The position numbers were made by a program, and so were the translations under genes. Below are positions 30,290 through 33,719 of a DNA stretch of 64,000 nt, piece after piece. The stretch comes from Thioalkalivibrio sp. ALE14 (GTDB lineage Bacteria > Pseudomonadota > Gammaproteobacteria > Ectothiorhodospirales > Ectothiorhodospiraceae): the NCBI RefSeq assembly GCF_000376845.1, contig NZ_AQXY01000031.1, positions 186,001 through 250,000 on the forward strand, in the 5' to 3' direction. The notes under the pieces were generated by a model. The model saw only the letters and a program-made list of their open reading frames with translations. It was not told the DNA's origin and searched no databases. How positions within the stretch are numbered: position 1 is the first letter of the stretch; each line of letters begins with the position of its first letter.

Positions 30290-30354
30290 TTCGCCTGCAA
30301 GCAGGCTCCTACAAGGCAGGGGAAGCCCCCTGTAGGAGCCTGCTCGCAGGCGAA
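30290..30354. repeat. Divergent REP pair upstream of the ABC operon
   Basis: TTCGCCTGCAAGCAGGCTCC (30290, minus orientation) and TGTAGGAGCCTGCTCGCAGG (30330, plus orientation), separated by GGCAGGGGAAGCCCCC. The two can pair with each other over more than 20 bp. Confidence 0.85.
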
Positions 30355-30438
30355 CAGCGCTCACCGAACGCCCCACACGTTCCGGCCCAACACAGACCAT
30401 GAAGAGTAGATGAATGTTTCAAAACCCTGCACAAGCGG

Positions 30439-30466
30439 TTGATTGACGGCCGCCATCCGTTAGAAT
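30439..30466 (+). promoter_or_regulatory. Sigma-70-type promoter of mgtE1
   Basis: TTGATT (30439-30444), 16-bp spacer, TAGAAT (30461-30466). Transcription would start at about 30473, 246 nt before the mgtE start codon. Confidence 0.55.
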
Positions 30467-30472
30467 AAGGCG

Positions 30473-30718
30473 CATCTCCACACACGGGAACGCGCCTTGA
30501 AACGTCGATCACGCAGTCGATCTATCCGCGCCTAGCGGCAAGCGCCCGTTCCCCAACCGGTCGCTTCCGTCAGGCCTCTTTGATCAAAGAGCCGGGAGCG
30601 GCCGGGCCTCACCAGCCCGACCCGACCCTGGACCATTCACCGCATCCGTGCGGCGCCACGCGGGCCTGTGCCTGAACACAGACCACTGGTAGCGCCCCGA
30701 TGCCGCCGGGAGAAGGGC
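30473..30718 (+). promoter_or_regulatory. Long structured leader of mgtE1
   Basis: About 246 nt without a convincing ORF. Visible pairings: GGGAACG (30486-30492) with CGTTCCC (30547-30553), the perfect palindrome CTCTTTGATCAAAGAG (about 30576-30591), and CCGC-GCCTA-GCGG (about 30527). I cannot find the conserved M-box (ykoK) core, so this is not called a riboswitch. Its length ahead of a Mg transporter makes metal-responsive control plausible. Confidence 0.4.
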
Positions 30719-32077
30719 ATGGAGCTTCACCTCGAACAGTCCATCATCGAGCTGAAGGAGCTGTTGCGTCTGGACGACCGCGACGGGCTCCACGAGCTGC
30801 TCGACTACATGCGCGTGCAGGATATCGCCCACGCGCTGATGGAGCTGGGCGACGAGGACCTGTGCGCCGTCTTCAACCTGCTGCCCCCGGGGCGCAAGGC
30901 GGACGTCTTCGCCTACCTCGACACCGGGCACCAGATCCGCCTGCTGGAGGCCTCGCCAAAGGACGACGCCCGCTTCATCCTCTCCGAGATGGAGGCGGAC
31001 GACCTCACCGCCCTGCTGCAGACCCTGGATCCGGACACCCTGCGCGGCTACCTGCGCCTGCTGCCGTTTCGCGCCATCCGCCGCGCGCTCAAGCAGCTCA
31101 ACTACCCGGAAGACTCGGTCGGTCGCGTGATGTCCCCGGACGTGGTCGCCGTGGACCCGGACTGGACGCTCAAGCGTGCGCTCGCGTTCATCCGCCGCAA
31201 CGCCGACGAGCACTCCAACAACGTGATCTTCGTGGTCGACCCGGATCGCGTCCTGCTGGCCGCCGTCCCCATCCGCCACTTCCTGCGTGCCAGTGCGGAC
31301 AGCCCGGTGCGCGAGCTGCTGGGCGAGGCCGAGCCGATCACCATCACCGTCTCCGAAGACGCGGTCGAAGCCGCTCGCCGGATCCAGCACTACGACCTCG
31401 AGACCCTCCCGGTGGTGGGCGAGACCGGCGAGCTGCTGGGCGTGGTCACAGTGGACGACGTGATGGACCTGATCGAGGCCGAATCCACCGAGGACTTCCA
31501 CAAGCTGGGTTCGGTGGGCACCCTGCCCCTGTCGCCGCAGGACGCCAGCCCGTTCCTGCTCTATCGCAAGCGCATTGGCTGGCTGCTGGGCCTGGTCGCC
31601 TTCAACACCATCGGCGCCCTGATGATCTCCCAGTACGAGGACATCATCGAGGCCGTGGTGGTGCTGGTGTTCTTCCTGCCACTGCTGATCGCCTCCGGTG
31701 GTAACGCCGGCGCGCAGAGCTCCACGCTGATGGTGCGTGCCATGGCCACCGGCGAGGTCACCGCCCGCGACTGGCTCAAGCTGTGGGCCAAGGAGATGGG
31801 CGTCTCCGTGACCCTGGGTGTCAGCATGGGGGTGGCCGTGTCACTCGTCGGCCTTTGGCGCGGCGGACCGGAGATCGCACTTCTGGTCGCCCTGGCCATG
31901 ACCGTCATCGTCACCGTGGCCAGCATCCTCGGCATGCTTCTGCCGGTGGTCCTGAACAAGCTCCGTCTCGATCCGGCCACGGCCAGCGTCCCACTGGTCA
32001 CCTCGCTCGCCGACATCGGCGGTATCCTGATCTACTTCTCGCTGGCCGTGGCTATTCTTGGCCTGGCGACTCCGTAG
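30719..32077 (+). CDS. mgtE: Magnesium transporter MgtE, first paralogue
   Basis: 452 aa from ATG 30719 (GGGAGAAGGGC just upstream). The superhelical MgtE_N domain spans about 1-130. Two CBS domains follow (MSPDVVAVDPDWTLKRAL; EPITITVSEDAVEAARRI...LETLPVVGETGELLGVVTVDDVMDLIE), then the connecting helix, then five membrane helices with IASGGNAGAQSSTLMVRAMA and the PLVTSLADIGGILIYF pore region. Acidic cytoplasmic domains bind Mg2+ and close the channel when Mg2+ is high. A second mgtE follows downstream. Confidence 0.95.
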   Translation: MELHLEQSIIELKELLRLDDRDGLHELLDYMRVQDIAHALMELGDEDLCAVFNLLPPGRKADVFAYLDTGHQIRLLEASPKDDARFILSEMEADDLTALLQTLDPDTLRGYLRLLPFRAIRRALKQLNYPEDSVGRVMSPDVVAVDPDWTLKRALAFIRRNADEHSNNVIFVVDPDRVLLAAVPIRHFLRASADSPVRELLGEAEPITITVSEDAVEAARRIQHYDLETLPVVGETGELLGVVTVDDVMDLIEAESTEDFHKLGSVGTLPLSPQDASPFLLYRKRIGWLLGLVAFNTIGALMISQYEDIIEAVVVLVFFLPLLIASGGNAGAQSSTLMVRAMATGEVTARDWLKLWAKEMGVSVTLGVSMGVAVSLVGLWRGGPEIALLVALAMTVIVTVASILGMLLPVVLNKLRLDPATASVPLVTSLADIGGILIYFSLAVAILGLATP

Positions 32078-32345
32078 GGAGACACTGCCCCATGTACACG
32101 CTCGCGTTGACACCCCAGGTTTTCCGAGACAAGGCGCGGTGCGCAGCCGGTAGTGGTTCTACCGGCAAGGGCCGCAACGCAGGATCGGTGAACCTGGGGT
32201 GCCAACCCCGAAGGGGCTCGGCCCCTTTTGCGTGCGCACGGCGTTGCGGTTCCCTTGTGCAGAATGACTGCACGGCAGTCACCGCGCCTTGTTCGCACAC
32301 AAAAGCGACTCGAGCGCGAGCGTGTACATGGGGCAGTGTCTCCCT
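32076..32345 (+). other. 270-bp nested inverted-repeat element between the two mgtE genes
   Basis: Starts at the mgtE1 stop codon and ends 15 bp before the mgtE2 ATG. The ends are perfect 31-bp inverted repeats (32076-32106 and 32315-32345). Inside: a 12-bp perfect pairing 32130-32141 with 32280-32291 (CAAGGCGCGGTG / CACCGCGCCTTG); a 15-bp pairing 32166-32180 with 32241-32257 with a 2-nt bulge; hairpins GCCGGTA/TACCGGC (32146-32166) and GTGCAG/CTGCAC (32257-32273); a terminator-like hairpin AAGGGGC-TCG-GCCCCTTTT (32211-32229); and an 11-bp crossing pairing 32111-32121 with 32191-32201 that would be a pseudoknot. It may be a structured RNA acting on mgtE2 or a palindromic mobile repeat. No known class recognised. 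Confidence 0.85.
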
Positions 32346-32360
32346 GAGGGGAACCCGCGC

Positions 32361-33719
32361 ATGAGCGCCACCGAACCCGATCTCGACACCCTGCGGCAGG
32401 TCATTGCCGACGCCCTGGACGAACCGGATGCGGACGTCCTGCAGGCGATTTGTGCCAGCCACGCCGCGCCGGACCTCTCCGACGCGCTGGAGGCGCTGCC
32501 GGCCGAGCAGATGGAGGCGTTCTTCCAGCGCCTGGACGTCGAGTGCACGGCGGATATCTACGCCCACCTGGAACCCGACCACCAGTCGCGGGTCTTCCAG
32601 GCGCTGGACGACGATAACGCCAGCCGCCTGGTGGCGGCACTGTCCTACGACGACGCGGTCTCCGTGATCGACGGGCTTGAAGACGACCAGGCCGAATCCC
32701 TCCTCGAGACGCTCCCGGACGACGACCAGGAGGCCCTGGAGACCCTGCTCGGCTACCCAGAGGAGAGTGCCGGGCGCCTGATGACACCCGAGTTCGCGAC
32801 GGTGCAGCCAGACTGGTCGGTGGCGGAGGCGATGGACCACCTGCGCGAACACAGCGACCTCGCCGAGACCATTAACACCATCTTCGTGACCACGCCCAAT
32901 GGCGAGCTGCTCGGCTGGGTGCGCCTGAAGGAACTCCTGCTGTCACGCCCCAGCACCAGCGTGCGCGAGCGCATGCACACGGACGTCGTCAGCATCGCGG
33001 CGGAGGAAGACCGCGAAGAGGCCGCCCACCGCATCTCCCACTACGACCTGGACGTCCTCCCGGTGGTGGACGACAACGGCCACCTCCTCGGCATCATCAC
33101 CGTCGACGACGTCATGGACGTGTTGCGCGCGGAGACCACCGAGGACTTCCACCGCATGGCCGCGGTCGGCGACGTCGTGCTCTCCCTGCGCGACGCCAGC
33201 ATGCAGCTGCTCTACCGCAAGCGCATCGGCTGGCTGGTGATCCTGGTTGCCGTGAACATCCTCTCCGGCATGGCCATCGCCCACTTCGAGGCCGCCATCG
33301 AGACCGTGGTCGCACTGATCTTCTTCCTCCCCATGGTCATCGCCTCCGGCGGGAACGCGGGCGCCCAGGCCTCCACCCTGGTGGTGCGCTCGCTCGCCAC
33401 CAACGACATCAAGCTCCAGGACTGGTGGCGCCTGGGCGGCAAGGAAATCCTCGTCTCGTCCGCGCTGGGCGCCACCCTGGCCGGCGCCATCTGGCTCTCC
33501 GGCAACTGGCTGGGCAGCTTCGAGGTCGCCAACGCCATCGCGCTGGGCATGTTTCTGGTCGTCCTGTTCGGCTCCATGTTCGGCCTGCTGCTGCCCTTCA
33601 CCCTCACCCGCTTCGGCGTCGACCCCGCCGTCGCCAGCGCCCCGCTGATCACCTCCGTCGTCGACGTCGTCGGCATCACCATCTACTTCGCCACCGCCGT
33701 CGCCATCCTCGGCCTCTGA
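32361..33719 (+). CDS. mgtE: Magnesium transporter MgtE, second paralogue
   Basis: 452 aa, ATG 32361 with GAGGGG at about 32346. Same layout as the first copy: MgtE_N helices (about 1-130), two CBS domains (MTPEFATVQPDWSVAEAM; MHTDVVSIAAEEDREEAA...LDVLPVVDDNGHLLGIITVDDVMDVL), and five membrane helices with the IASGGNAGAQASTLVVRSLA motif and PLITSVVDVVGITIYF. The two proteins are clearly paralogous but differ throughout the N-domain, so the duplication is old. Equal length and tandem arrangement suggest either heteromers or differential use. Confidence 0.95.
   Translation: MSATEPDLDTLRQVIADALDEPDADVLQAICASHAAPDLSDALEALPAEQMEAFFQRLDVECTADIYAHLEPDHQSRVFQALDDDNASRLVAALSYDDAVSVIDGLEDDQAESLLETLPDDDQEALETLLGYPEESAGRLMTPEFATVQPDWSVAEAMDHLREHSDLAETINTIFVTTPNGELLGWVRLKELLLSRPSTSVRERMHTDVVSIAAEEDREEAAHRISHYDLDVLPVVDDNGHLLGIITVDDVMDVLRAETTEDFHRMAAVGDVVLSLRDASMQLLYRKRIGWLVILVAVNILSGMAIAHFEAAIETVVALIFFLPMVIASGGNAGAQASTLVVRSLATNDIKLQDWWRLGGKEILVSSALGATLAGAIWLSGNWLGSFEVANAIALGMFLVVLFGSMFGLLLPFTLTRFGVDPAVASAPLITSVVDVVGITIYFATAVAILGL

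Follow-up and report, generated by a model that had tools for sequence, protein, structure and literature searches.

Genomic context of the element

The window, a 64,000-nt stretch of the Thioalkalivibrio sp. ALE14 genome, carries two mgtE genes on the + strand, mgtE1 (30719..32077, start codon approximate; TIGR00400, 314 bits) and mgtE2 (32361..33719, with its ATG at 32361; TIGR00400, 353 bits). At 30415-30726, upstream of mgtE1, lies the mgtE motif leader RNA RF04316 (295.8 bits), a riboswitch candidate known from Thioalkalivibrio only (PMC11109978). A GTAG-type REP pair (TTCGCCTGCAAGCAGGCTCCTACA ... TGTAGGAGCCTGCTCGCAGGCGAA) is located upstream of this leader RNA at 30290-30353, and a similar GTAG-type pair is present at the corresponding place in locus L074.

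The stretch between the two genes is occupied by a self-complementary element. A sequence-only reading of the window had placed its start at the mgtE1 stop codon (TAG, 32075-32077) and its end just before the mgtE2 Shine-Dalgarno, and both placements hold. The perfect 31-bp end helix and the coordinates of the element had also been given essentially correctly: the left arm of the terminal inverted repeat, P1 (32076..32106, + strand), is 31 nt long and 100% complementary to the right arm at 32315..32345 (- strand). Based on a 270-bp-shorter empty junction (L065) and ~50 genomic copies, both described below, the body of the mobile element is assigned to 32078..32343, giving 266 bp between two 4-bp target-site remnants. 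These are GTAG (32074..32077), which includes the mgtE1 stop codon, and CTGA (32344..32347), both assigned from the empty site and the preference of the family for CTAG/TTAA.

Folded as RNA, the element reaches -186.7 kcal/mol, compared with -115.9 (sd 5.1) for shuffled sequences (z -13.8; 0 of 200 as good). Its reading frames are mechanical ORFs only, and copies differ in length by steps of ~14-15 bp with no preservation of frame. The search against Rfam that had been proposed as a check gave no family match for the element at gathering score in Rfam 15, and the matches at relaxed scores were long hairpins with no relation to it, microRNA precursors among them.

Copies in the genome and insertion into an empty site

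A sequence search of the host's own genome (3.02 Mb, 31 contigs) returned 41 matches that cover most of the element at 76-100% identity. A covariance search of the same genome identified 101 modules, the hairpin units described in the next section, arranged as 49 pairs and 3 singles with the order +/- in 49 of 49 pairs. The element is present in ~50 copies dispersed over unrelated loci; the earlier observation that there is no second copy is correct for the 64-kb window, but not for the genome. Among congeneric genomes, 12 of 24 carry the element.

In nine related Thioalkalivibrio loci mgtE1 is followed directly by mgtE2, with no element between them. The closest of these empty junctions (L065 from strain ALE31, whose mgtE2 is 97% identical) falls short of the window junction by exactly 270 bp, the length expected for a 266-bp body and a 4-bp duplication together. 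The stretch between mgtE1 and mgtE2 is a MITE-like insertion and not an mgtE2 regulator. Both options had been raised from the sequence: the mobile palindrome or MITE is borne out by copies at unrelated loci and by the nine empty sites, while the mgtE2 attenuator is not supported by these observations, the element not being consistently upstream of mgtE2. In this one strain the insertion may still affect mgtE2 incidentally.

Exact 4-bp target repeats were found at 30 of 86 sites (CTAG at 22, TTAA at 4), against 14.3 in shuffles, of which 0 of 2000 were as high. Many copies at unrelated loci with target duplications had been proposed as the mark of a mobile element, and this is the pattern found. 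The lack of a target-site duplication noted earlier applies to the window copy, whose repeats have decayed to GTAG/CTGA, and not to the family. Many copies (window 32074-32077; L010, L020, L021, L026, L143 and others) lie at the stop codon of the gene upstream, as is expected from the TAG and TAA present in the CTAG and TTAA targets. In such copies the stop codon is either TAG/TAA from the target site or TGA/TAA from the first bases of the element.

The genome has 73 occurrences of the tips of the element, GGRARACRCTGATYNA, most of them paired at a distance of one element. One such tip, at a contig end, adjoins a 1.2-kb element with an IS5_4-type transposase (G000:C30:1-1202; PF01609, and NF033581 IS5_4 at 322.8 bits). 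The other end of this resident IS is GGAAACGCTGATCAATGG, and the far end of the copy is cut by the contig end. The outer ~18 bp of the left P1 arm resemble the ends of the resident IS. Beyond the tips the resident IS and the MITE have nothing visibly in common, and the interior thus has no appearance of being derived from this IS by deletion. A cognate IS was also looked for by exact tip patterns in five other genomes (G146, G108, G221, G592 and G236), and none was found. The P1 arms are perfect and carry copy-specific double changes. Within one genome, two end types, AGGGAAACACTGATYAATGTAC (L019, L028, L041, L045, L046) and AGGGAGACGCTGATTNAATCGC (L048), were observed on closely similar interiors, and both ends of any copy are always alike.

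Two opposed hairpin modules

Each half of the element is a self-contained hairpin of ~97 nt. Module b occupies 32108..32204 in its own sense on the + strand (R2 covariance model, 86.5 bits, E 6.6e-23; hairpin fold z -6.4), and module a occupies 32219..32313 in its own sense on the - strand (R2 78.7 bits, E 1.4e-20; z -5.2); both belonged to the R2 training set. The naming of a and b follows the likeness of ends and spacer to other families. In each module Stem I (~18-20 bp) comes first. It is followed by an internal loop containing CAA, a GGC paired to GCC and an AAC bulge, and then by Stem II, an internal loop containing CAAG, and Stem III, which has a small loop. In the spacer lies a mini-hairpin, CCCC-GAA-GGGG (32206..32216), at which some copies carry an extension of ~15 nt.

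A single 270-nt RNA with a pseudoknot was considered and rejected, as the two halves are inverted copies of one module. The crossing pairing on which the pseudoknot had been based is real (32106-32127/32185-32206, 22 nt, 86%), but it is better explained as Stem I, the closing stem, of the self-contained module b. Two further long-range inverted repeats, 32129-32141/32280-32292 (13 nt) and 32172-32180/32241-32249 (9 nt), reflect pairing between module b and the inverted module a; a 15-bp helix that had also been listed was not found as such.

When 11 modules from 6 genomes are aligned with plain MAFFT, the proportion of paired cells is 84.5%, and sliding brings it to 48% at most; double changes occur at 28 of 35 pairs. 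For 63 distinct modules, in an alignment fitted to the model and hence biased towards it, 91.6% of cells are paired, against 37-42%, and double-change cells number 699 versus 201 in shuffles. U-G pairs are conserved at fixed columns of this larger alignment. The loop bases (CAAGGC, AAC) are invariant over distant families, with the stem sequences free to vary. The sequence-only reading had counted homologues at random loci without compensatory changes as evidence against a structured RNA; the loci are indeed scattered, but the compensatory changes are massive. The covariation that it had named as a check on the helices was found within the modules, at scattered loci and not consistently before mgtE2.

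Strand asymmetry

Equal numbers of G-U and A-C mispairs are predicted if the underlying process is blind to strand, as palindrome repair is, or if the structure is a double-stranded cruciform. This equality is seen in the P1 arms, where the ratio is 16:14. Read in their own sense, the modules give 73:10 for a and 61:12 for b. Over 97 modules the ratio is 255:71, with a G-U excess at 50 loci against 1; the sequences are related by descent, so that these counts are not independent, and much of the excess falls at alignment columns 16-18, 35 and 43, to which conserved wobble positions contribute. In a test restricted to Thioalkalivibrio each alifold run favours its own strand, and the strand was settled by the cross-family counts. 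G-U far above A-C in the own sense points to a module selected as a folded single strand. The natural reading of these sequence patterns is that each module is selected in its own sense as a folded single strand, either of RNA or of ssDNA, and that each DNA strand would thus carry one native module.

Orientation relative to host genes was also compared. The Thioalkalivibrio copies have the b sense along host transcription in a ratio of 49:18 (p 2e-4), and copies in other families show no bias (9:6 and 9:10, from rough gene calls). Such an orientation bias would suggest selection at the RNA level; being limited to Thioalkalivibrio, it gives no argument for a general effect on host transcripts.

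Evolution at shared sites

At 11 sites common to two species, identity averages 95.5% over the element, and 89% and 88% over its 300-bp flanks. At five shared sites (L239/L023, L269/L020, L259/L022, L051/L014 and L270/L018) the hairpin extension of ~15 nt is whole in one species and absent in the other. Such whole-block exchange of extensions suggests gene conversion between dispersed copies. Gene conversion could itself yield part of the conservation of the element, and host selection is thus not proven.

Elements of the same plan in other genomes

Weak matches in other gammaproteobacterial families led to elements of like plan with different ends. In 29 such elements from ~25 genomes, modules a and b stand in +/- order with a spacer of mostly 7-10 nt, and the total length is mostly 265-272 bp, reaching 317 bp with a longer spacer. 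Their terminal repeats of ~31-34 bp are perfect or nearly so, and differ in sequence between families. Elements with a single module were also found (L182, L183). Three other weak blastn matches (L161, L167 and L170) were set aside, as they resemble portions of coding genes.

The R2 model, whose E-values are rough because they come from a short calibration, has matches in 127 of 369 genomes of Gammaproteobacteria (E<=1e-3), in 99 of 398 of Pseudomonadota (E<=1e-4) and in 45 of 297 of a second phylum (E<=1e-4), that of genome G771, with an entry locus titled Vicinamibacteria; some of the latter matches are paired. The R2 matches nearly always represent a convergent a/b pair between ~32-bp terminal repeats. 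Spot checks with R2 gave no match in six genomes outside Pseudomonadota or in one Ectothiorhodospira.

No match was obtained in a phage collection, and a plasmid collection yielded one, on an Azotobacter plasmid. This is an unannotated element of the same a/b plan on Azotobacter chroococcum plasmid pAcX50f (Pseudomonadaceae; L237, 1378-1580). A +/- module pair also lies at 962-1164 of a contig catalogued as viral (L322, IMGVR_UViG_2811995032_000003), a possible route between hosts.

Proposed mechanism and alternatives

The reading that we consider likely is that of a MITE moved by an IS5-family transposase with CTAG/TTAA targeting, whose core consists of two modules selected as single strands and bound by a putative conserved factor. 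A DDE transposase of the IS5 family would move the non-autonomous element by its ends and insert it at CTAG/TTAA-like sites with a 4-bp duplication, the window copy having landed on the mgtE1 stop codon. The interior consists of two conserved ~97-nt modules in opposite orientation, apparently not leftover transposase DNA, and a reader from either side would meet a native module first. When a strand is exposed, either as a transcript or as ssDNA during replication or transposition, its native module would fold. The putative factor would recognize the invariant loop bases (CAAGGC, the CAAG loop and AAC), and may thereby help the element to persist or spread. Against this reading, gene conversion among copies can also keep the interior uniform. 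The truncation of the resident IS copy by a contig end, the five other genomes in which exact tip patterns gave no cognate IS, the share of the G-U excess that comes from a few conserved wobble columns, and the confinement of the orientation bias to Thioalkalivibrio weigh against it as well.

Of the other explanations, the strongest is that the modules act only as DNA, forming hairpins or cruciforms for a replication, recombination or transposition protein in the manner of REP/REPIN sequences, with no role as RNA. We regard it as a serious possibility that falls somewhat short of an even chance. One native module per strand in constant inverted pairing, the lack of a general orientation relative to host genes, and a core that travels with differing transposon ends would all be accommodated. 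However, RNA is the more usual setting for U-G pairs conserved at fixed columns, although ssDNA also tolerates G-T, and the excess of G-U over A-C is not expected from a double-stranded cruciform.

It is unlikely that the interior is a functionless, passive palindrome with stems kept by template-switch repair and gene conversion between copies. The perfect end arms with their copy-specific double changes and the exchange of hairpin extensions as blocks at shared sites are what such a process would leave, and its predicted equality of G-U and A-C holds for the P1 arms. The same prediction fails for the modules (255:71), and the process does not account for loop bases that are invariant over distant families while stems are free, for a module length fixed at ~97 nt or for the a/b pairing that has been kept. 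A cis-acting RNA, either an attenuator or an Mg2+ switch, is very improbable despite the position between co-directional mgtE genes and the terminator-like GGGGC-TCG-GCCCC-TTTT of the window copy, as the junction lacks the element in nine related loci, dozens of unrelated loci contain it, in about one copy in three a hairpin extension replaces the TTTT stretch, and the operon already has its own leader RNA upstream.

Beyond the preferred reading of a transposase-moved MITE with a selected core, a broader proposal is put forward tentatively, with slightly more doubt than belief. The conserved inverted-module heterodimer may be the lasting unit of a mobile class that crosses phyla, with its ends exchanged among IS families. 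If true, a structured core would use successive transposases, and the module would represent a new functional motif at the level of RNA or ssDNA.

The common view of MITEs is that they are remnants of transposons and that their interior carries no meaning. In the present elements the invariant bases and the very strong covariation, seen in many genera and in two or more phyla, lie in the interior, and it is the ends that vary. Thousands of natural variants are available for finding the binding partner of the fold and for distinguishing action as RNA from action as ssDNA. Seen next to one gene only, a repeat of this kind can resemble a riboswitch.

Comparison with known systems

Literature searches gave no description of an inverted a/b module pair inside terminal repeats. 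Narunsky et al. (2024) covered 50 genomes including Thioalkalivibrio and listed 250 mobile or repeat candidates (PMC11109978), and the module may overlap some of these catalogued candidates. The candidate MRSC-65-2 is likewise a single long covarying stem with dozens of copies per genome in diverse phyla, sometimes near a transposase (PMC11109978). Its stated conserved repeat, UYCCGG (PMC11109978), is found in only 8 of 67 modules and is absent from the window element, and the text consulted does not describe for it two inverted modules enclosed by terminal repeats. RF04316, named SRC-65-1 in the same survey (PMC11109978), belongs to the same operon and genus, but is a different RNA, located upstream of mgtE1.

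REP and REPIN sequences likewise form inverted hairpin dimers, often heterodimers, in many dispersed copies (PMC3733652, PMC3116915). REPs are 20-40 bp long, carry a GTAG or CGTC tag and are associated with tyrosine transposases (PMC3733652, PMC3116915). In contrast, the modules described here are ~97 nt long, lie inside ~32-bp terminal repeats with target repeats of the DDE type, and have no GTAG/CGTC tag; the element with matching tips belongs to the IS5 family.

MITEPsy1 of Pseudomonas syringae, an IS5-type MITE, likewise has IS5-family-like terminal repeats and a 4-bp duplication, of CTAG or YTAA (PMC3189936), and is without a transposase. It is 100 bp long with 18-bp repeats, is reported to be restricted in distribution, and has no module pair described (PMC3189936). 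The element between mgtE1 and mgtE2 shows the features of a MITE in being short (under ~300 bp), in its terminal inverted repeats, dispersed copies and family target-site duplication, and in having ends in common with an autonomous element.
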